Shown: in pieces, positions 5,070 to 53,979 of the stretch
Layout of the letters: each line of letters opens with the position of its first letter
Position numbering within the stretch: the stretch's first letter is position 1
Assembly (NCBI GenBank): GCA_001873285.1
Contig: MNYV01000076.1
Coordinates: 1-61,723 of the forward strand
DNA from: Nitrospirae bacterium CG2_30_53_67
Lineage (GTDB): Bacteria > CG2-30-53-67
Direction of reading: 5' to 3'
DNA: 61,723 nucleotides
The notes under the pieces: model-generated
Database searches by the model: none
The model's input: the letters and a program-made list of their open reading frames with translations, nothing else
What the model was told of the DNA's origin: nothing
Position numbers and translations under genes: made by a program

Positions 5070-5097
5070 ATACGATGAAGGCCATCAACTTGATTTT

Positions 5098-5141
5098 AAA
5101 AAAAAGACCTCCCGTATGATAGATCCATACGGGAGGTCTTT
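5098..5141. terminator. Bidirectional terminator between rlmN and the selenoprotein gene
   Basis: A 13-bp perfect stem GACCTCCCGTATG/CATACGGGAGGTC (5106-5118 and 5126-5138) with a 7-base loop. On the minus strand eight T follow the stem, a strong rho-independent terminator for the redox cluster; on the plus strand only three T follow, a weaker stop for rlmN. Confidence 0.9.
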
Positions 5142-5185: not shown

Positions 5186-6046
5186 TTATGACCTCTTCTT
5201 TTTCAACTCCTCGTCAATCATTGCCTTGAAACCCTCCAGGGAACGATTGGTCAGAATTCGTCCGTTGATGAAGATGGTCGGCGTCCCTCTGACCCCGGCC
5301 CGGCCGGCATCGGATACATCTTTATCGATGGCGTTTTTATGTTTTGGATCTTTAAGACTCTTTTGGAAGGAGTCCATATTCAAACCGAGTTCCCCTGCCA
5401 TGTCGAGGAGCTTCTGATCCGACAGGGCGCTATAATTATTAAAGATCTTTTCTTCATACTCCCAATATTTTCCTTGCTCATTCGCGGCCAAGGCAGCGAC
5501 AGCCGCCTGCCGGGAGAATGCATGCGTGGGGATGGGATAGATCTTGCTCACCAGCTTGACTTGTTTGGGATATTGCCCCAGCACCTGCCGGAGTAGCGGC
5601 AAAAGCCGCGCACAGTAGGGTCACTGGAAGTCTTCGAAGACGGCGATCACCACCGGCGCATCGGCCGGACCTTTAAAGGGAGACCCTTTGACATCGATCG
5701 GCTGGATGAAACTGACATTGATGACGGAAAGGGTCTTGGCCTTTTCATTGGTTACAAAGAGCTGGTCACCCCGTGGAGACACGGCGATTCGGCCGATGTC
5801 CTTGTCCACGGGGATCCGGCCCTCTATCTTTTTCGTCGCCTGGGATTGAACCAGCACTTCTCCGGATGTCAGGATGAAAACCCATTGGCCGTCCGGCGTG
5901 GAGGCAATGTCGATCGGGTTTTGATCCAGATTCAACGTGGATATTTTGCTCCATTCCACTTCCGCCTGAACGGAAAGGGGCAGAAAGCAAACCAAGACAA
6001 AAAACAGCATGGAAAGTAGAACTAAACCCCTTTTTCTTTTTCCCAT
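5186..6046 (-). CDS. DsbA-like thioredoxin-fold selenoprotein (Sec-Pro-Tyr-Cys active site), exported
   Basis: Two abutting frames are one gene split by an in-frame TGA at 5621-5623. The TGA falls on the first position of the thioredoxin active site, giving VFEDFQ-U-PYCARLL, so Sec142 replaces the first Cys of CPYC and Cys145 is retained. The 286-residue product starts with a signal peptide (residues 1-28, ending SVQA), has a YVTN/beta-propeller-like segment (about 30-115), then the DsbA-like domain with GTPTIFING carrying the cis-proline. A hairpin suited to be a bacterial SECIS follows the TGA. The start ATG at 6046 has GGGAGG upstream. The likely role is periplasmic disulfide chemistry; a nonsense mutation is the alternative but would not be expected exactly here. 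Confidence 0.85.
5576..5593 (-). promoter_or_regulatory. Candidate bacterial SECIS hairpin
   Basis: On the minus-strand transcript a 7-bp stem (CUCCGGC with GCUGGGG, two G-U pairs) closes an AGGU loop. The loop begins 34 bases after the UGA, inside the 16-37 base window usual for bacterial SECIS elements, and a G in the first loop positions matches the SelB-binding pattern (E. coli fdhF loop AGGUCU). A second hairpin GCGGC-UUUU-GCCGC lies closer to the UGA but lacks a loop G. Confidence 0.65.
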
Positions 6047-6139
6047 AGTCCGCCTCCCGTGTAAGAAATTTTTTATAACCTATCTTAGTACAGTCATTTG
6101 AGTCAAGGAAATAATTTCTGCAACACCGCACACATCATC

Positions 6140-6727
6140 TTATCGGACCCTCTCGAAGTATCCGCCGAAGGCGCAGGGGCGGCAAAGGATTTTGCCGTGG
6201 ACCTGGACATCCCGCATGTCCTGAACCCAGTCGCCGCATTGATCACAGCGCACGCGTCTGACCGGACGGCCCGGCCTGTCCTGAACGGGAATATGGACCC
6301 GCACTTCTCGTATTTCAAAAAGTTCATCCTCGGGCATGACCTTATACGCCTCCCTCTGCTGGTCGTATTTCTCCTGGATACCGGGCGCGTATTTCCGCGC
6401 AAGCTCCCGTGATGATTCCCTGGCGCGGACCCTGACCGCCCTTCCGGTCTCCAGGTTGACGAAGGTGGCGGCCATGATCCCGTAATCCATGATCTTCACT
6501 GTCCGTTTCCCCACGCGGCATCCGGTAACCGACATAATGGCATCCGAGGCGCATCGGTCCATTTCCACGTAGACGATGATCTTCTTACGTTCCGCTTTGG
6601 ATTTCGGATCCTCGATCCCGATCTCACGGCAGCCGGTGACGGCCATCCTGGTCCCGATGACCTGTCCAGGGCACTCCTCGCCGTGAAAAGCCACCGATTC
6701 CTTCAAACATTCTTCCAGGGTTTTCAT
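6140..6727 (-). CDS. FmdE-family protein with C-terminal zinc ribbon
   Basis: The N-terminal half matches the FmdE domain first described beside molybdenum formylmethanofuran dehydrogenase: AFHGEECPGQVIGTRMAVTG, followed by MDRCASDAIMSVTGCRVGKR. The C-terminal part is a four-cysteine zinc finger (RCDQCGDW about 35 residues before CRPCAFGGYF). In bacteria such proteins accompany molybdopterin enzymes, and the upstream neighbour is MoeA-like. The exact reaction is unknown. The ATG at 6727 (196 residues) is chosen over an upstream in-frame start at 6778 because the domain begins there and AAGGAG lies upstream. Confidence 0.85.
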   Translation of the reverse strand: MKTLEECLKESVAFHGEECPGQVIGTRMAVTGCREIGIEDPKSKAERKKIIVYVEMDRCASDAIMSVTGCRVGKRTVKIMDYGIMAATFVNLETGRAVRVRARESSRELARKYAPGIQEKYDQQREAYKVMPEDELFEIREVRVHIPVQDRPGRPVRRVRCDQCGDWVQDMRDVQVHGKILCRPCAFGGYFERVR

Positions 6728-6767
6728 TCCGATCCATTCTCCTTGATCCCTTTTCGTGTTCACGATC

Positions 6768-7793
6768 CTATTGACCAAAAGGACAGACTGGAAAGCGGCA
6801 GGTCTCGCAGTTCAGACAGAGCCCGCCGTGGCCCAGGGCTGCAAGGGCCTCCCGTCCGATCCGTTCTCCGGCCAAAACCCGGGGGAGTATCAGGTCAAAG
6901 AGGGTGATATCGTGGAACATCCCGCACGCCGGCACACCGATCACAGGAATATCGCCCATATATGCGACCATGAGCATGGCCCCTGGAAGGACCGAAGAGC
7001 CATAAGTGATCTCCTCTGCGCCGGCATCAGCCACAGCAAGACGCGTCACATCGTCCGGATCAACGGACATCCCTCCTGTGGTCACGATGAGATCCGCCCC
7101 TTTTCCTATCAGATCCCGTATATGCCCGGCGATGACTTTCCTTTCATCCGGGGCGTAACGAACATCTACGATACTGGATCCGATCTCCTCCACCTTTTTT
7201 TGTATCACGGGTCTGAACCGGTCCTTGATCCTCCCGTGGTAGACCTCGTTTCCCGTGATCACCACTCCAACGCCGGCTTTCCGAAGCGGGAGGAGATGGA
7301 GGACACCCCCTGCTTCTTTGCAGACGGCAACGGCCTTTTCGATAATCTTCTTATGAATCACCAGCGGAATGGCCCGCGTCCCGGCCAGGATCTCTCCTTT
7401 CTTGACATACGTGTTGGTATGACGCGTGGCGCACATCACCTCGCCTATAAGATTGAATCGATAGAGAGCCTGAACATTGACCTTAAGCAGACCCTCATAC
7501 GCGGCCGTAAGCTCCAGTTTCCCCTCTTTGGGTTCTTTGGAAACCATAATACCCCGGCCGGCCAGCGCCGAGGCCAGCATCACCGCCGCATCATTTTCAT
7601 GGAGGTCCTCACCGCCGATCTCCAGGACATAAAGATGCTCTTTCCCCAGGTTTTTTAGATGTTCGATATCCGATTCGGTAATGATGTGCCCTTTTTTGAA
7701 GGCCCTTCCCTTGAACTGACCCGGGATGATTTCCGTAATGTCATGGGCCAGCACGGTTCCAACGGCATCGTGTACCGGCAATGTCTTCACCAT
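6768..7793 (-). CDS. MoeA/MogA-like molybdopterin-binding protein with cysteine-rich tail
   Basis: Residues 5-20 (VHDAVGTVLAHDITEI) resemble the MoeA N-terminus. The MoCF-biosynthesis/MPT-binding domain spans about 170-300 with VVITGNEVYHG and VTTGGMSVDPDDVT. The last 20 residues form a CLNCETCRFPVCPFG cluster not found in housekeeping MoeA and likely metal-binding. At 341 residues it is shorter than MoeA (about 400). It is probably a specialised molybdopterin handling protein paired with the FmdE-like neighbour. The start ATG has AGGAGGG upstream. Confidence 0.8.
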   Translation of the reverse strand: MVKTLPVHDAVGTVLAHDITEIIPGQFKGRAFKKGHIITESDIEHLKNLGKEHLYVLEIGGEDLHENDAAVMLASALAGRGIMVSKEPKEGKLELTAAYEGLLKVNVQALYRFNLIGEVMCATRHTNTYVKKGEILAGTRAIPLVIHKKIIEKAVAVCKEAGGVLHLLPLRKAGVGVVITGNEVYHGRIKDRFRPVIQKKVEEIGSSIVDVRYAPDERKVIAGHIRDLIGKGADLIVTTGGMSVDPDDVTRLAVADAGAEEITYGSSVLPGAMLMVAYMGDIPVIGVPACGMFHDITLFDLILPRVLAGERIGREALAALGHGGLCLNCETCRFPVCPFGQ

Positions 7794-7905
7794 TTCACCC
7801 TCCTGCTTGATTCATGGGTTCCCGATCCGTGTTGTGCATGTTTTACATAATGTTTTATCAAGAAACCCTTTAAAATTCAAGGTAAATAATCCCTCCGCCA
7901 TTCTC

Positions 7906-9066
7906 CTAAAACAAACCCTTCTTCTGCCTGGAACCCAAACATTGAGGGCAGGTTTCTCCGAGCAGCCCCAGAAAAGGCTCTCCGCAAATCCGGCAGCTCT
8001 TAGCAGATACACACATGAGCTCTCTCTCTTTTCCCTGGAGCAGTTCCTGAAGAACCACTTCCTCTTTAAACGAAACGGCCTTTGGAAGGCAGGCCTCCCC
8101 GCAAATCCGGCATCCGGTGCATTTTGAGGCATTGAAAAAAATGCGTATTTTTTTCCCCTCTTCATCCGGCTCTCTCCGGATGGCCCCGGTAGGACAGAGG
8201 GTCTCACAGACATTACAGCCGATGCAAGCCCCGGAAATCTCAAGGTCGACAACCGGGAAAACCTTAAAAGAGAGCTTCTCTTTTAGGGGTCCTCCCAGCA
8301 AAGGGAGCAATTCAAAGAGAAAGGACCGCATGGGATTCTCCCGGTGAGACCACCGGTTGATACCGGGGTCCTCCCCGGAATCAGGAATCAAATCCCTGGC
8401 GGCATCCAGGGTTCGCTTACGGAAGAAACTGAAGAGTTCCCTGCGTCCCAATCCTTCTCCGGAAGGTCTACTTTTATCCGAATGATCTTCCTTTAAAAGA
8501 TCAAAATCCTCCACTTCTTTGATCCGTTCCCCGGAAATCCCAAAACAAGAAAGCAGTTTACGTGTCCTCACGAGAAGCTGTTCATAGTGTTTCATGGATC
8601 CGAAAAAGGGACAGGTTTCACACCCGGTTCTTTTGATTAAAACCTCTTTCGCTCCCCAGGCAAAGGGGGCGATCAGATAGGCTTCCGACAGCCCGGCAAG
8701 ACAGGGAAGGACCATGACCTCCGCACGATTTTTTCTCTCGTGCATGATACAGGTCCATCGCGCAATGGAATCCGATTCCAGTTCTTTCTTGAGCCGTTCA
8801 CGCCGTTCCATCTCCTTGCGGCCGCTCAACGTGAATACCCCGTTGGGACAAGACGGGATGCATATCTCGCACCCGGAACAGCTCTCTCCGAGGACTACGG
8901 ATTGACCCAGTATATTCACCGCATCGCAAGGACACGCATTGAGGCATATTTTACAGCCTGAACGTGGATAACGGATCCTCGAACAAAGATGGGATCGAAT
9001 CCTGATGTCCGATTCCCTGGCCAACTGTCCCAGCATGCGGTTCAAAATCCCGCTCTGAAATACCAT
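7906..9066 (-). CDS. Multi-cluster 4Fe-4S protein with MvhD-like middle region
   Basis: A cytoplasmic-type electron-transfer protein of 386 residues. The N-terminal ferredoxin part has CKICLNACPCDAV and CSGCEICIPSCP. The middle (about 110-175) contains LPCLAGLSEAYLI and RTGCETCPF, resembling the MvhD/hydrogenase FeS subunit fold. The C-terminal part has CIGCNVCETLCPTGAI and CTGCRICGEACLP, then a zinc-ribbon-like CRICG...CPQC. It heads the FmdE/MoeA-like cluster, so it may feed electrons to a molybdenum or tungsten enzyme encoded elsewhere; that is inference. Confidence 0.8.
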   Translation of the reverse strand: MVFQSGILNRMLGQLARESDIRIRSHLCSRIRYPRSGCKICLNACPCDAVNILGQSVVLGESCSGCEICIPSCPNGVFTLSGRKEMERRERLKKELESDSIARWTCIMHERKNRAEVMVLPCLAGLSEAYLIAPFAWGAKEVLIKRTGCETCPFFGSMKHYEQLLVRTRKLLSCFGISGERIKEVEDFDLLKEDHSDKSRPSGEGLGRRELFSFFRKRTLDAARDLIPDSGEDPGINRWSHRENPMRSFLFELLPLLGGPLKEKLSFKVFPVVDLEISGACIGCNVCETLCPTGAIRREPDEEGKKIRIFFNASKCTGCRICGEACLPKAVSFKEEVVLQELLQGKERELMCVSAKSCRICGEPFLGLLGETCPQCLGSRQKKGLF

Positions 9067-46531: not shown

Positions 46532-47557
46532 TCAGAGATTCATATCCTGATAAGCCATGAGCCGGCTGAAATCAAAGAGCGCGCCCATGGCCAGATTCTC
46601 CGTATGAATGCCTGACTCCTCGACCGCTGCCAGTGGATTGAGGCCGCCGGCCACAATGATGCCGGCCCGTCCTTCCACCACCGGGATATCGAGCAGCGGC
46701 TGGTTGGGCTTTCCTGCCATCAGGACGGCGCCCAATCCGATACCTTCGAGCTGCCTGACAAGCCTTCGGATCTCAGGGAGGGCCACGGCCGGAATCTCCC
46801 TGAAGCTCGCCCCGATCAGGCCGCGTCCCGTGCGGACGGCATCAAGAACGCTGGTCATATGCCCTTTGATAAAGATCTCCAAAGGATCCAGCGAGGAACC
46901 GTCATAATGAATAATCTGTGTAAATCTGTGCGGCTCGCCTTGATAGATATCGAGGAGCCCTCCGAACTTTGAAACCACGGGAATGCCCGCATGGATGAAG
47001 ATGCCGTTCAAGGTCACACTGCAGATCGTGCCGATAGCGGTTTTCCCTTCAGGAACGAAAAAATCACCCATCGGCGTCCCAGGGCCGGAAATGGTGATGT
47101 ATTGCCCCATCCCCAGTCTCTTTTCAAAAACCGGGGTCATGATTTTTAACGCATCTTTTATGAACCGGGTATCGATCAGGGAAATATTCAACAAGACCGG
47201 ACCGGATTTCTTTTTGATAGAAAAATTCATCCTGTAAGAAAGAGCGTCTATTTTAGAGGAAATCAACCCCACCTTATCAACCACCAGAGCATTTTGCAAC
47301 TCCTCTTCACCCTTAGCCGTGATCTTCCGTCCCAGTCTTTCGGATCTCTTGCATGTCAGGCCCAACTGATCGGTCAGCGCCAGGTAATGACGTACCGTCC
47401 TGTGGCTGAGATTGATCCCGAAAGACTGAAGGGTCTCCGCAAGATGGGTGCTCCCCAGCGGTCGTCTTGCGTTATTAAGGGCCTTAAGGATGGCCACGAT
47501 TTTTCGTTCTTTATTGATATCCATCTCGCGTAAAACCCTGAATGGTCTGTCATCCAT
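46532..47557 (-). CDS. nrpR: NrpR-type transcriptional regulator (HTH plus one NrpR/DUF128 domain)
   Basis: In methanogens NrpR represses nitrogen-assimilation genes and is released by 2-oxoglutarate. The N-terminal winged helix (about 15-80, ILKALNNARRPLGSTHLAETL, SHRTVRHYL) is followed by a DUF128 domain (about 95-325, MGDFFVPEGKTAIGTICSVTLNGI, PLLDIPVVEGRAGIIVAGGLNP). It has only one regulatory domain, whereas some archaeal forms have two. It lies divergent from a split glutamate synthase cluster, a coherent target. The ATG at 47557 is used; an inner ATG at 47524 is possible. Confidence 0.88.
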   Translation of the reverse strand: MDDRPFRVLREMDINKERKIVAILKALNNARRPLGSTHLAETLQSFGINLSHRTVRHYLALTDQLGLTCKRSERLGRKITAKGEEELQNALVVDKVGLISSKIDALSYRMNFSIKKKSGPVLLNISLIDTRFIKDALKIMTPVFEKRLGMGQYITISGPGTPMGDFFVPEGKTAIGTICSVTLNGIFIHAGIPVVSKFGGLLDIYQGEPHRFTQIIHYDGSSLDPLEIFIKGHMTSVLDAVRTGRGLIGASFREIPAVALPEIRRLVRQLEGIGLGAVLMAGKPNQPLLDIPVVEGRAGIIVAGGLNPLAAVEESGIHTENLAMGALFDFSRLMAYQDMNL

Positions 47558-48364: not shown

Positions 48365-49480
48365 ATGTGCCGTTTAAGCGCAATGACATGCCGAGATTAT
48401 TTCTCCCCCATGGAGAATATCCTGGCCCTGGAAACCATGAAGGAAGGCCACGACGGGTCCGGCCTGGGACTGTTGCTCAAAGACCTGGGCGGGGCTTTCA
48501 AGGACATGAAGGGATACCCTATTCTCTCCGGAATCTGTTCCAATCATGGGCTGGAGATCTTGGACCAGTATATGAAGGCACGGGGGTTCAATGAACTCAT
48601 GGCCTGGGAGCCTGAAATCCGCAGGGTTCCCGGTTCAGAGATCCAAAGACGGGACCACTATTTTGCCAAGGTCTATGACTATCCTCTGGATGTGCGGGAG
48701 GCCCCCATGCCGGGAAAAGAGGATCTGCTCATGAAGACCCGCATCGCCCTGCGGAGCAGAGGAGAAAGAGATGAATCGATTTTTGTCTTCTCTTTCTATC
48801 CGGATATCATCACGATCAAAGAAGTTGGAGACCCTTTGCATCTGGGAGAGTTTTTCAGTCTGGACCGAGACGAGCTTAAAGCCAAAATCATCTTTGCGCA
48901 GGGCCGGCAGAATACGAATTATGCGATCTACCTCTATGCCTGCCATCCCTTTTTCATCCAGGGATACGGCACCATGACCAACGGGGAGAACACGGCCTTT
49001 GTCCCCATCCGTGAATTCCTGACAAGCCGGGGCTTCCCGGGTTATATGGGTTACAACAGCGACAGTGAGGTTTTAACCCACATCCTTCACTACTGCCACA
49101 GACAGTTGAAATATCCGCTGATCTATTACAAGGATGTGATCACACCGCTCAAAAATGCTGAGATCAACGGCCGCCCGGACGGCAAGGCCCTCCGTCTCAT
49201 CAGGAATTCGCTTCGCCCGCTCTGCATCGACGGGCCGAACTGTGTGATCGGATTCACTCCTGACGGCACGGTCTTCATGACCCAGGATTCCAAGAAACTC
49301 AGGCCGGGCGTGGTCGGAGGCGCACCGGGAAAGTTTGCGCTCATGTCTGAAGAATGCGGACTGGACAAGGCCATCCCGGACCGGGACAAGAGCGTGGATT
49401 TCGCCCCCATGAAATATGACATGGCCATGGTCACGCCCGATGCCAAGGAGTTAAAAAAATGGAACCAGCTGAACGTTTAG
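48365..49480 (+). CDS. Glutamate synthase glutaminase (class II amidotransferase) subunit, split type
   Basis: Supplies ammonia from glutamine to the synthase subunit. The ATG at 48365 places Cys directly after Met (MCRLSAMT), the N-terminal nucleophile of class II amidotransferases; GGAGAG precedes it. An in-frame start at 48284 would bury the Cys and is rejected. At 371 residues it corresponds to the GATase part of GltB alone, as in archaeal-type glutamate synthases. It overlaps the next gene by 22 bases. Confidence 0.88.
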   Translation: MCRLSAMTCRDYFSPMENILALETMKEGHDGSGLGLLLKDLGGAFKDMKGYPILSGICSNHGLEILDQYMKARGFNELMAWEPEIRRVPGSEIQRRDHYFAKVYDYPLDVREAPMPGKEDLLMKTRIALRSRGERDESIFVFSFYPDIITIKEVGDPLHLGEFFSLDRDELKAKIIFAQGRQNTNYAIYLYACHPFFIQGYGTMTNGENTAFVPIREFLTSRGFPGYMGYNSDSEVLTHILHYCHRQLKYPLIYYKDVITPLKNAEINGRPDGKALRLIRNSLRPLCIDGPNCVIGFTPDGTVFMTQDSKKLRPGVVGGAPGKFALMSEECGLDKAIPDRDKSVDFAPMKYDMAMVTPDAKELKKWNQLNV

Positions 49481-51117
49481 ATCAAAATCACCAACTCTCT
49501 CTCAAAGAGTTTCCCTATATCATCCGGTGGCGGGAAGACCGCTGCACCCGCTGCGGCCGCTGTACGGCCGTCTGCCCCGTCAATGCCATTGAACCTTCGG
49601 TCTTTTCCCAGCGGCTGGTGCAGTCAGAGGGAAGCACCCCCTTCCCCGCCGTGGTTCGAAGGATCACGCACGGAATCCGGCAGGTCACGGATATGGAAAG
49701 GCACTGCACCGGATGCAGCGCCTGCGCCCTGGTCTGTCCGAACGTCGCGATCGAACCGGAATACAACCCGCATCACAAGTTCCTTTTTTACAAGAACAAG
49801 GGGGGCGTTCCCTACAAGAGGGGCGGCCGGAGAAACGATCCAAGCCCATCCACCGTGGACCAATTGAAATTCACCCGGATCTCCATGCTCACGGACCCGG
49901 CGCTGGATGCCGGACGCCACGAATTCCACATCCGAACCCTCCTCGGAAGGAACCTTCCACCGGAAAAGCTCCCTCTGGAGGTCGAAGACGGTCTTCTTGC
50001 GGTCAAGAAGGATTCCGGATTCATCCCGCCGGTCAGGGAGATCTATCCGATTCGTATTGCAAGCATGTCCGTAGGCGCCCTCTCCCCGCACATGTGGGAA
50101 GGGCTGGCCATGGGGGTTGCTTACCTCAATGAAGTGGAAGGGCTTCCTGTGGTCATGTGCACCGGCGAAGGAGGCATACCGCCCAGGCTCCTGACCTCTC
50201 GTTTTGTGAAATATTTTATCATTCAGATCGCATCGGGTTATTTCGGCTGGGACGAGATCATCCATGCCATTCCGAAGATGGTGGAAGATCCCGCGGCTAT
50301 CGAGATCAAATACGGCCAGGGCGCAAAACCCGGAGACGGCGGCCTGCTCATGGCCTACAAGGTTCTCAAACTCATCGCAAAGATCCGGGGCGTGCCTGAA
50401 TACGTGGATCTCGCGTCTCCGCCCACCCACCAGACCCAGTATTCCATCGAGGAGGCCGTGGCCAAGATGATCCAATCCATGTCCATGGCCTGGGGGTTCC
50501 GTGTCCCGGTCTATCCCAAGATCTCCGGGACCAAGACGGCCAGGGCGGTCCTCAACAATCTGGCAAGAAATCCCTATGCGGCGGCCCTCTGCATCGACGG
50601 CGAAGACGGGGGGACCGGCGCGGCCTACAATATCTCCATGGACAAGATGGGTCACCCGATCGCATCCAACATCCGGGACTGCTACCTCGACCTGGTTAAA
50701 CAGGGGAAACAGAACGAACTCCCCCTGATCGCCGCAGGCGGCATGGGAAAGACCGGCAGCCTCGCGGCCAATGCCGCGGCCATGATCATGCTGGGAGCCT
50801 CGGCCGTGGACATCGGGAAATATATCATGCAGGCCGCGGCCGGCTGCCTTGGGAATGAATACAACCGCTGCAACCTCTGCAATACGGGACGGTGTCCCAG
50901 GGGGATCACCACGCAGGATCCCAAACTCTACAGGCGGCTCGACCCGGATAAGGTTGCGGAACGGGTGGTGGAGGTCTTCAAGTCCGCGGACGTGGAACTC
51001 AAGAAGATCTTTGCACCCATGGGGCGCAGCACTCAGCTCCCCATCGGCATGTCAGACGGCCTGGGTGTTGCGGACAAGGAGATCGCCGAACGGCTGAATA
51101 TCAGCTACGTCTGTTGA
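49459..51117 (+). CDS. Glutamate synthase FMN/ferredoxin subunit (GltB2-type)
   Basis: 552 residues. An N-terminal ferredoxin domain carries CTRCGRCTAVCP and CTGCSACALVCP for two 4Fe-4S clusters. The FMN TIM-barrel domain has GEGGIPPRLL, KYGQGAKPGDGG, CIDGEDGGTGAAY and IAAGGMGKTGSLAANAAAM. Near the end CNLCNTGRCPRGI gives the 3Fe-4S-type cysteine set. It reduces 2-iminoglutarate, using ammonia from the glutaminase subunit. The separation from the glutaminase is typical of the archaeal-type enzyme. Confidence 0.93.
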   Translation: MEPAERLDQNHQLSLKEFPYIIRWREDRCTRCGRCTAVCPVNAIEPSVFSQRLVQSEGSTPFPAVVRRITHGIRQVTDMERHCTGCSACALVCPNVAIEPEYNPHHKFLFYKNKGGVPYKRGGRRNDPSPSTVDQLKFTRISMLTDPALDAGRHEFHIRTLLGRNLPPEKLPLEVEDGLLAVKKDSGFIPPVREIYPIRIASMSVGALSPHMWEGLAMGVAYLNEVEGLPVVMCTGEGGIPPRLLTSRFVKYFIIQIASGYFGWDEIIHAIPKMVEDPAAIEIKYGQGAKPGDGGLLMAYKVLKLIAKIRGVPEYVDLASPPTHQTQYSIEEAVAKMIQSMSMAWGFRVPVYPKISGTKTARAVLNNLARNPYAAALCIDGEDGGTGAAYNISMDKMGHPIASNIRDCYLDLVKQGKQNELPLIAAGGMGKTGSLAANAAAMIMLGASAVDIGKYIMQAAAGCLGNEYNRCNLCNTGRCPRGITTQDPKLYRRLDPDKVAERVVEVFKSADVELKKIFAPMGRSTQLPIGMSDGLGVADKEIAERLNISYVC

Positions 51118-51140
51118 GAAAAAAGTGGATTATCTCCAAA

Positions 51141-51370
51141 AGAGTGGGTGAAAACATCAGGGGTCCAGGGGTCAAGGATTCCAGGGGTCAAGTGAAGTGT
51201 TAAAATCATAAGGGGCCGAGGATTATAGGGTCCAAGGGTTCCAGTGTTTTTCTCTGAAGATTTTGCTTGCGTTTCAGTATCTCACTTGAACCCTTGATCC
51301 CTCGACCCCTGGAACCCTATGGATCTTCAACCCTTGACCCCTTTTTACCCACTAGATGGGAGAAGAACCA
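51141..51370. repeat. Large palindromic intergenic repeat, copy B
   Basis: About 230 bp, sharing the words AGTGAAGTG, AGGGTTCCAGTGTTTTTCTCTG and the right end ATGGGAGAAGAACCA with copy A in the same order. A deletion relative to copy A removes about 80 bp. The two copies bracket the first two glutamate synthase genes. Confidence 0.8.
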
Positions 51371-51416
51371 AAAAAGCAGACGGAATACAGCAGACAGCCT
51401 ACAGGGAAAAAAATGA

Positions 51417-51620
51417 TCGTTCGCTTTGGGTCTGCGACAAATTTATGGGTAACCATTTCTCTAAGAGCGTCATTCCCCGACTTGATCGGGGAATCCAGAC
51501 AATTAAGGAACTGGATTGTCCGGTCAAGCCTGTCCTACGACTTGATCGGGGGACCGGACAATGACAACCATATGTAATCCTGATGTGTACCCACAAATTT
51601 GTCGCACACTCGTTCGCTTT
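51417..51620. repeat. Inverted-repeat element with 11-bp direct repeats
   Basis: Terminal inverted repeats TGCGACAAATTTATGGGTA (51433-51451) and TACCCACAAATTTGTCGCA (51588-51606) match at 18 of 19 positions. TCGTTCGCTTT is repeated directly outside each end (51417-51427, 51610-51620). The core contains two hairpin-forming units with GACTTGATCGGGG, a well-known dispersed palindrome type whose translation gives VIPRLDRGIQ. No transposase. Confidence 0.75.
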
Positions 51621-51660
51621 TCTGATTGCTGACCGCTGAAAGCTTTTTTGTGAGAAGACA

Positions 51661-53979
51661 ATGATCATTCATGGAAACATAAAAGGCAAGAGAGTCTCTT
51701 CCCGTGAACTCGAGGAACAAATCCAGAAAGCGGTCCGGGACGGACAAAGGGCGCTCTCCATCCGGGCGGACGGGCAGCACGGCATCGGCGGCCGCATCTG
51801 GCCCACCGGGCAGAAGGTCCGAATCACGGTGGAAGGTCCCGTGGGACAGCGTCTCGGAGGCATGGGCATGGACGGCGCCGAGATCATCGTAAAGGGAAGC
51901 GCCTCCGATGACGTGGGCTGGATCAACTGCGGGGCCAGGATTACGGTTCTTGGGGATGTGACCAACGGCGCCCACAATGCCGGCGCCCAGGGACTCCTCT
52001 ATGTCCAGGGAGGAGGCGGCGCCCGTTGCGATACCATGACCAAGGCCAACCCTCGGTTTGAACCGTTGCAATCCTGGTACTTCCGGGATGTAGGGGACTC
52101 TTTCGCAGAGTTCAAAGCAGGGGGCATCGCGGTGGTCTGCGGTGTGCATCCCAAAAATCCCGATAACATTCTCGGTTACCGTCCCTGTGTCGGGATGGTC
52201 GGAGGAAGCATCTACTTCCGGGGCCCCATTCAGGGATACAGTGAATCAGACGTCAAGTGCGTTGATCTCACCCCCCAGGACTGGGACTGGCTGTGCAAGA
52301 ACATCAAGCCGTACCTCAAGGCCATCGACCGGATGCCCTACCTTGGAGAATTGACCCGATCTCCCAAGGACTGGAAGAAACTCATCGCCTATACCCCGGC
52401 GGAAAAGGCCGAGCGCAAAGGAATGAAGATATCCACCACGGCGTTTAGGGCCCAAACCTGGGAGCCCACCGTGGGTAAAGGGGGCATCTTCGGCGAATAT
52501 CTGGATCACGATCAGACCCTTCTCCCCTATATTACAACCGGTGAGAATCGGCGGTTCCGCCCTGTCTGGAACCATCAGAAATATCTGCCCCCCTGTGCCT
52601 ATGCCTGTCCTTCACGGATCCCCTCCCACAGGCGGGCCTCCCTGATCCGTCAGAACAAGCTGCAGGAGGCCCTTGAACTGGCGCTTCAGTACAGTCCCTT
52701 CCCTGCCAGTGTCTGCGGCCAGATCTGCCCGAACCTTTGTATGGATGCCTGCACCCGGGGAAGGCTGGACAAACCCCTGGATATCAAAAACCTCGGAGCA
52801 TTGAGCCTGGATCTCCCCGCGCCCAAGAAGGCCCGGTCCACAGGGAAGAAGGTCGCGGTGATCGGGGCCGGTCCAGGCGGGCTTTCCGCGGCCTGGCAGC
52901 TGGCGCTCAAGGGACACAACGTGAGTCTTTATGAGACATCAGAAAGACTCGGCGGGAAAATGGAGTGGTGCGTCCCTCGTAACCGCCTGCCGCAGAAGAT
53001 CCTGAAAAAGGAGATCTCCCGTTTTGAAGAGCTGGGGGTCGGAATCCATCTGAAAACCAAAGTGACCGGGAAACTGTTCAAGGAGATTTACAGAAAACAC
53101 AACATCGTGGTCGTGGCCTGCGGCGCGCAGGAGGCCAGAACTATGCCCTTCCAGGGATCGGAACACGTGGTTCCCGGCATTGAATTCTTAAAACAGGTCA
53201 ACTACGGCGAACCCATGGACCTCGCAAGGAAAAAGGTGGTGGTCATCGGCGCCGGGAACGCCGGCATGGATATCGCCTGCCAGTCTTATAACTTGGGGGC
53301 CGAGTCCGTGACGGCCGTGGATATCCAGCCGCCCGCAAGTTTCAGCAAGGAACAGGAACTGGCAAAGGCCATGGGCACCCTGATCCTCTACCCCAAGATC
53401 GCGGAGAAATACGATCCAAAGAAAAAAAAGATCTATTTCCGGGACGGCGCCTCTTTAAATGCCGACGTGGTGATCATCTCCATCGGCGAGACCCCGGTCC
53501 TCGGCTTCCTGCCTCCGAGCGTGCACACGGAACGGGGGTTCATCACCGCCGATGAACACGGCCGGACATCGGATATAAAAGTATTCGCCGTGGGAGACGC
53601 CGCCCGGCCGGGACTCGTCACCCACGCCATCGGTCAGGGCCGTCTCACCGCAGAAGCGATACACGCCCAGATGATGAACTTTGATCTGATCCCGGAAATC
53701 AAGCAGGTCATTCCTTACGATAGGATCAGGACCGTCTATTACGAAAGATCCCTGCTCGATGAATTTGTGCCGCAAAAAGAAGCGGACCGCTGTATGTCCT
53801 GCGGATCATGCAGGGACTGCCGCATGTGCGAGACCGCCTGTTATTACGGGGCCATCACGCGCAAGGAAACCGAAGACGGCGGATTTGAATATGTGGCGGA
53901 CCCCAAACTCTGCATCGGCTGCGGTTTCTGCACAGGCATCTGTCCCAGCGGGGTTTGGGAGATGGTTCAAAACATCTGA
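51661..53979 (+). CDS. Glutamate synthase GXGXG domain fused to the NADPH-oxidoreductase (GltD-like) and ferredoxin domains
   Basis: 772 residues in three parts. Residues 1-250: GXGXG beta-helix domain of GltB (GQRLGGMGMDGAEIIVKG, GDVTNGAHNAGAQGLLYV). Residues about 300-690: GltD-like FeS/flavin oxidoreductase with CAYACPSRIP, CGQICPNLCMDAC, FAD motif VAVIGAGPGGLSAAW, NAD(P)H motif VVVIGAGNAGMDIAC and VFAVGDAARPGLV. Residues 700-772: ferredoxin CMSCGSCRDCRMCETAC and CIGCGFCTGICP. Together with the two preceding genes this completes a glutamate synthase. Confidence 0.92.
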   Translation: MIIHGNIKGKRVSSRELEEQIQKAVRDGQRALSIRADGQHGIGGRIWPTGQKVRITVEGPVGQRLGGMGMDGAEIIVKGSASDDVGWINCGARITVLGDVTNGAHNAGAQGLLYVQGGGGARCDTMTKANPRFEPLQSWYFRDVGDSFAEFKAGGIAVVCGVHPKNPDNILGYRPCVGMVGGSIYFRGPIQGYSESDVKCVDLTPQDWDWLCKNIKPYLKAIDRMPYLGELTRSPKDWKKLIAYTPAEKAERKGMKISTTAFRAQTWEPTVGKGGIFGEYLDHDQTLLPYITTGENRRFRPVWNHQKYLPPCAYACPSRIPSHRRASLIRQNKLQEALELALQYSPFPASVCGQICPNLCMDACTRGRLDKPLDIKNLGALSLDLPAPKKARSTGKKVAVIGAGPGGLSAAWQLALKGHNVSLYETSERLGGKMEWCVPRNRLPQKILKKEISRFEELGVGIHLKTKVTGKLFKEIYRKHNIVVVACGAQEARTMPFQGSEHVVPGIEFLKQVNYGEPMDLARKKVVVIGAGNAGMDIACQSYNLGAESVTAVDIQPPASFSKEQELAKAMGTLILYPKIAEKYDPKKKKIYFRDGASLNADVVIISIGETPVLGFLPPSVHTERGFITADEHGRTSDIKVFAVGDAARPGLVTHAIGQGRLTAEAIHAQMMNFDLIPEIKQVIPYDRIRTVYYERSLLDEFVPQKEADRCMSCGSCRDCRMCETACYYGAITRKETEDGGFEYVADPKLCIGCGFCTGICPSGVWEMVQNI

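Follow-up and report, generated by a model that had tools for sequence, protein, structure and literature searches.

A probable DsbA-like selenoprotein with a two-bladed beta-propeller fragment in Nitrospirae bacterium CG2_30_53_67

Gene structure and domain architecture

The window investigated here, i.e. the whole 61,723-nucleotide stretch of contig MNYV01000076.1 (C76) from Nitrospirae bacterium CG2_30_53_67, contains on its minus strand a gene of 286 codons with a single in-frame TGA at codon 142 (Table 1). The candidate phylum CG2-30-53-67 is known for its dissimilatory sulfite reductase genes (PMC11406059). Translation of the minus strand from 6046 to 5186 with TGA read as selenocysteine (Sec, U) is open from ATG to TAA, and the residues around codon 142 are VVIAVFEDFQ-U-PYCARLLPLL; the plus-strand reading of the same interval is meaningless. 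The initial annotation had described one frame broken by TGA alone, without stating its strand, with the TGA in the place of the first Cys of a CxxC motif (Sec-Pro-Tyr-Cys) and with the second Cys and the cis-Pro region intact, and all of this holds. It had also foreseen that automatic annotation would split the gene, and ORF calling with translation table 11 indeed yields two ORFs, 5621-6046 (141 aa) and 5186-5602 (138 aa, TTG start). Among the TGAs of the window that are flanked by at least 70 open codons on each side, the one at codon 142 is the only one whose surrounding frame reads as a single protein domain, and none of the others makes a convincing second selenoprotein.

Table 1. Features of the putative selenoprotein locus, with positions in the window
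Feature	Position	Strand	Basis or remark
Whole gene of the putative selenoprotein	5186..6046	-	ATG 6046-6044, TAA 5188-5186; 286 aa
Predicted signal peptide, residues 1-28	5963..6046	-	KRKR, hydrophobic helix, AxA-type site VQA
Two-bladed YVTN-type beta-propeller fragment, about residues 29-112	5711..5962	-	Profile match, AF2, Foldseek
DsbA/Thioredoxin_4 domain, about residues 113-286	5189..5710	-	PF13462, PF01323, fold comparison
Putative Sec codon 142, in-frame TGA, position 1 of UPYC	5621..5623	-	TGA=U translation and homologue alignment
Ribosome-binding site GGGAGG	6053..6058	-	6 nt before ATG
Hairpin 1, GCGGC-UUUU-GCCGC	5596..5609	-	Folding; directly precedes hairpin 2
Hairpin 2, probable bacterial SECIS element	5576..5593	-	7-bp stem, AGGU loop; folding and bSECIS model
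Terminator-like hairpin with U-run	5095..5141	-	Fold -27.7 kcal/mol, z -7.2

The GGAGG before the ATG is retained in all four other Sec orthologues examined. The terminator-like hairpin is placed 3' of the full-length TAA and not 3' of the TGA at codon 142. It consists of an almost perfect inverted repeat of 17 bp and a U-run between the convergent rlmN and selenoprotein genes, and it is probably a terminator, which is perhaps bidirectional.

The AlphaFold2 (AF2) model of the protein has a mean pLDDT of 93.4 and shows the helix of the signal peptide at residues 3-20; the AxA-like cleavage site is similar in all six Sec orthologues. The C-terminal domain matches PF13462 with 95.1 bits (cut-off 23.2) and PF01323 with 73.9 bits (cut-off 25.6), and it contains the UPYC active site as well as the cis-Pro loop GTP at residues 254-256. 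Its closest folds are 3GYK, BdbD, Wolbachia alpha-DsbA2 and ScsC (Z 21-23.5 over 163-173 residues). Since the Foldseek matches of the whole model were of the DsbA type, a separate prediction and search were made for the N-terminal part. It has a profile match to residues 107-186 of 1L0Q (E 1.1e-14) and is modelled as two blades with seven strands (pLDDT 95.7). Foldseek retrieved 1L0Q (TMq 0.81) and, lower in the list, 6R5X (E 3.7e-3), and the score for the TIGR02276 repeat lies below its cut-off (17.1 vs 27.85). The N-terminal part had initially been called propeller-like; its propeller identity stands, with the correction that it is a true propeller sequence comprising two blades. The two-part architecture is common to the whole family, including 13 homologues with Cys at the active site that stem mainly from Desulfobacterota, so that the initial description of the fusion as less usual overstated its rarity. 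Within the family, conservation is lower in the N-terminal than in the catalytic part.

The outcome of ORF calling corresponds exactly to a pair of separate proteins, namely a half-propeller ending at the UGA and a DsbA fragment restarting at a TTG or GTG codon, and a TTG start does occur soon after the TGA in the window. Yet the split would lie inside the thioredoxin fold, between the strand of residues 132-138 and the helix of residues 143-158, and would thus leave a downstream piece without the first strand and the CxxC motif. Moreover, the downstream start codons are located at differing positions among the orthologues, the terminator follows the whole frame, and the Cys homologues are continuous. 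We accordingly reject the reading as two proteins, which has hardly any probability left.

Conservation and decoding of the in-frame TGA

The TGA at codon 142 is present in six of six orthologous species, including the one investigated here. Four orthologues from the same genus or family, with protein identities of 75, 59, 58 and 55% to our protein, each contain one TGA at the same site, and the orthologue of a further Nitrospirae-labelled MAG (L052) also has TGA in this column. The MAGs with orthologues are labelled Nitrospirae or bacterium, and one is named FCS_M_CG2-30-53-67. In the 13 more distant full-length homologues the same column is invariably Cys (12 CPYC, 1 CRYC); one of them comes from Desulfosarcina widdelii, whose genome is complete. 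The initial annotation had proposed such an alignment and had named other stop codons or a frameshift in close relatives as counter-evidence; neither was found at codon 142 among the close relatives.

As a single substitution converts TGC or TGT into TGA and the distant homologues have Cys, a nonsense mutation in a Cys gene, i.e. a pseudogene or a sequencing error, would be a simple explanation for the interruption. It is already contradicted by the recurrence of the same TGA in six species, whose genomes were assembled independently and whose proteins diverge down to 55% identity, without any other lesion. The substitution rates were estimated for four pairs, in two of which dS is saturated after the TGA. 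For the pair L021/L022, dN and dS are 0.18 and 1.33 before the TGA and 0.12 and 1.0 after it, and for L024/L025 the values after the TGA are 0.095 and 1.3. Wherever dS can be estimated, dN is thus much smaller than dS both before and after the TGA. Decay following a nonsense mutation is thereby excluded, and this explanation becomes exceedingly improbable.

In the maximum-likelihood tree, all six Sec proteins cluster together (support 99/96). This topology is compatible with a single switch between Cys and Sec, the direction of which is not given by the tree because the root is not fixed. A plasmid collection contained no record that covers 80% of the protein.

Five further DsbA-like proteins with one in-frame TGA each (L029 of G004, G002:C148:2146-2646, L042, L047 and L049) were observed, all of the single-domain or short-N-terminus type. 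The four loci that were read have the motif UPHC or UPFC, in each case followed by a different predicted hairpin, and Sec-containing DsbA may have arisen more than once. Another unusual architecture is that of tandem DsbA-like domains, with two and three CPYC/CPFC domains per chain in L030 (G006:C67) and L027 (G035:C72), respectively; it is found in the sister family and elsewhere.

Two adjacent hairpins are predicted downstream of the UGA. The initial annotation had noticed a hairpin with an AGGU loop and had placed the start of the hairpin 34 bases after the TGA; this distance is correct for the start of the loop (5586-5583), the stem of hairpin 2 begins after 27 nt, and the preceding hairpin 1 had been missed. 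The AGGU loop is invariant in the six orthologues. According to the 2026 selenoprotein catalogue, the bSECIS model specifies a G at position 1 or 2 of the apical loop, often followed by G or U, at a distance of 16-37 nt from the UGA, and hairpin 2 fits this model with respect to both its loop and its distance (PMC13188914). The same two-hairpin structure is the MFE and centroid structure of all five distinct orthologue sequences that were folded. The SECIS loop of Escherichia coli fdhF also contains AGGU. The loop sequence of hairpin 1 is not conserved, and its outer pair is GC, GU or AU in four orthologues and broken by a G-A mismatch in L024 and L025.

Selection on this region can be traced at the codon level. 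At invariant residues, the same codon is used in 0.84 of the species pairs for codons 143-158, compared with 0.435 elsewhere (permutation p 5e-5), and this excess of codon identity argues for selection on the RNA and not on the protein only. The hairpin pairs are retained at 98.3% across the orthologues, compared with 17-58% when the partners are slid. Covariation is thin, with one two-sided change, by which the outer pair of helix 1 turns from G-C into A-U, and solely one-sided changes of the G-C/G-U type in helix 2; the shuffle control for hairpin covariation was not significant (218/500), and the z-scores of single-sequence folding are modest (-0.3 to -1.75). Since covariation is too sparse for a stand-alone proof, the argument rests on synonymous conservation. 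A covariance model of the hairpin region gives high scores for the selenoprotein gene alone in the genome of the window and four relatives (87.8-90.5 bits; next match 23 bits), and a search for sister SECIS elements with this model retrieved only weak matches outside the known gene (E 0.05-1), one of which, in G006, sits in a Cys-type DsbA paralogue.

The machinery for Sec insertion, for which the initial annotation had suggested a search, was found in the 2.36-Mb draft genome (95% complete). It comprises selA (530.9 bits), a complete selC encoding tRNA-Sec with the anticodon TCA (UCA in the RNA; 73.9 bits), the first 285 codons of selB, which run into the end of contig C62, and the second half of selD, truncated at the end of contig C108. 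Complete selB genes are present in four relatives, and tRNA-Sec scores above the cut-off in every family member searched. A second candidate for tRNA-Sec on contig C84 was discarded, as ARAGORN calls it tRNA-Leu.

A full-length protein would likewise result if the UGA were decoded as an amino acid other than Sec, either by a general recoding (genetic code 4 or 25) or by near-cognate readthrough. TGA is, however, the commonest stop codon of the long ORFs in the window (20 of 38), none of which contains an internal TGA, so that it serves as an ordinary stop and is not generally recoded to sense. Furthermore, the column corresponds to the catalytic Cys of the homologues, where Cys or Sec alone is expected, and both a bSECIS-type hairpin and the machinery for Sec are present; decoding as another amino acid is therefore very improbable. 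The conserved TGA, the Cys homologues, the Sec machinery and the synonymous conservation after the TGA together with the hairpins make a selenoprotein very probable. Judged from this comparative sequence evidence, we estimate a probability of about 0.93 that the gene encodes one exported protein with Sec at the UGA of codon 142.

Relationship to known proteins and possible function

DsbA-like and DsbG-like proteins with Sec in a UxxC motif have already been catalogued (PMC1088965, PMC2398784, PMC9312934, PMC13188914), for the DsbA-like ones in agreement with the initial annotation. The Sargasso Sea set contained the first DsbA-like selenoprotein with UxxC (PMC1088965), which is named 'DsbA-like protein form 1' (PF01323) in the 2026 catalogue (PMC13188914). 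Our protein is similar to it in the DsbA fold, in Sec as the first residue of a CxxC-type motif and in the existence of Cys homologues, but adds the N-terminal two-bladed propeller fragment. The term 'beta-propeller' is absent from the accessible portion of the 2026 catalogue (PMC13188914), and the domain fusions given for the Global Ocean Sampling data, as far as the text is accessible, are others than a propeller-DsbA fusion. The subfamily and its propeller fusion are hence absent from the catalogued selenoprotein lists within the open-access texts available to us, and an earlier description may exist.

A second relative is the DsbG-like or Rcas_1661 family thioredoxin-like (seleno)lipoprotein (NF041057; PF13462), which shares the Thioredoxin_4 domain and the UxxC motif. 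All 19 members of the alignment, our protein included, match NF041057. With the catalytic domain alone, our protein scores 73.4 bits against the curated cut-off of 190, and it differs from the (seleno)lipoprotein in its N-terminal part and in having no visible lipobox. The scores for the DsbG and DsbC equivalogs NF008657 and NF008129 are likewise below the cut-offs (23.3 and 12.9 bits vs 124 and 215).

A further comparison is that with the trimeric disulfide isomerases ScsC of Proteus mirabilis, ScsC of Caulobacter and alpha-DsbA2 of Wolbachia, whose catalytic folds match with Z values of 21.8, 22.2 and 23.0 and superimpose with an rmsd of 1.9-2.0 A over 164-173 residues. Each of these proteins, like ours, has an N-terminal extension before the DsbA-like domain. 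Their extensions are helical and confer oligomerisation and isomerase activity (PMC6450060), whereas that of our protein consists of two propeller blades, and they use Cys instead of Sec. With regard to the sequence and fold of the blades, the counterparts are 1L0Q, a YVTN propeller from an archaeal surface layer, and 6R5X. The former belongs to a longer propeller chain, the latter is an eight-bladed propeller made of four two-bladed fragments alone, and neither is combined with a thioredoxin domain. The assembly of such fragments into rings of six or eight blades is known (PMC7734218; 6R5X).

From these analogies the following mechanism can be proposed. SelB would bind the AGGU hairpin and bring Sec-tRNA(Sec) to the UGA, as in established bacterial Sec decoding, and the signal peptide would direct the protein to the periplasm. 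Outside the cytoplasm, the Sec-Pro-Tyr-Cys site, judged from its domain, would perform thiol/selenol-disulfide exchange. The two-bladed fragment could self-assemble, with three or four copies completing six or eight blades, and the assembled blades would hold several catalytic domains together. We propose a trimer or tetramer because two blades are too few to close a propeller and such fragments are known to assemble; that the N-terminal part in fact makes one is possible, with at best even odds. A membrane protein of the DsbD/CcdA type might keep the protein reduced, so that it could act as a disulfide isomerase or reductase in the manner of the oligomeric isomerases with a DsbA-like domain. 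A gene of this type (DsbD_TM) is present in the genome, and searches of the 95%-complete draft with the Pfam models gave no match for DsbB and VKOR. This combination makes an isomerase or reductase kept in the reduced state more likely than an oxidase, although the absence of DsbB and VKOR is a weak argument as the genome is a draft. We give about an even chance to the assignment of our protein as an oligomeric disulfide isomerase or reductase.

A different role of the same selenoprotein also has to be considered. It may be a thiol oxidase similar to DsbA or BdbD, or a reductase for detoxification or metal handling, whose blades bind a partner or substrate and do not self-assemble. The closest folds include BdbD and a DsbA-like oxidoreductase, ScsC has a copper role (PMC5524982, PMC8900818), and the lower conservation of the N-terminal part is as in a binding module. 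Against an oxidase stands that neither DsbB nor VKOR was found for its re-oxidation, whereas a gene for a DsbD/CcdA-type reductant is present, and against partner binding that isolated two-bladed fragments are known to assemble. Binding of a partner or substrate is the main rival to self-assembly of the N-terminal part, and this set of alternative roles is a plausible possibility somewhat short of even odds. More speculative, and rather doubtful as a whole, is the full extension of the isomerase model, in which the family would consist of periplasmic disulfide isomerases oligomerised by a split propeller, with the attacking Cys replaced by Sec in one clade.

The locus adds a probable selenoprotein whose support is unusually strong and which stems from a bacterial lineage about which little is known; automatic annotation would turn it into two false proteins. 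The gene speaks for a use of selenium in periplasmic disulfide chemistry. It also suggests a new way to a multivalent DsbA-like enzyme, based on a half-propeller that needs copies of itself. If this is true, it would represent a third route to a multivalent isomerase, besides the beta-sheet dimer of DsbC and the helical trimer of ScsC.

Gene neighbourhood

The genes upstream on the same strand (6140-9066, minus strand) encode FmdE-type, molybdopterin-binding (MoCF) and 4Fe-4S proteins. Genes of similar size with matching starts are located upstream in L051, whereas L052 and L054 have none there, and the neighbourhood is thus not conserved. In a distant part of the window, the minus strand carries a gene for an NrpR-type regulator (46532-47557; PF01995, E 7e-78). 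NrpR is a nitrogen regulator best known from archaea, and the gene found here, in a bacterium, adjoins glutamate-synthase-like genes at 49459-53979.
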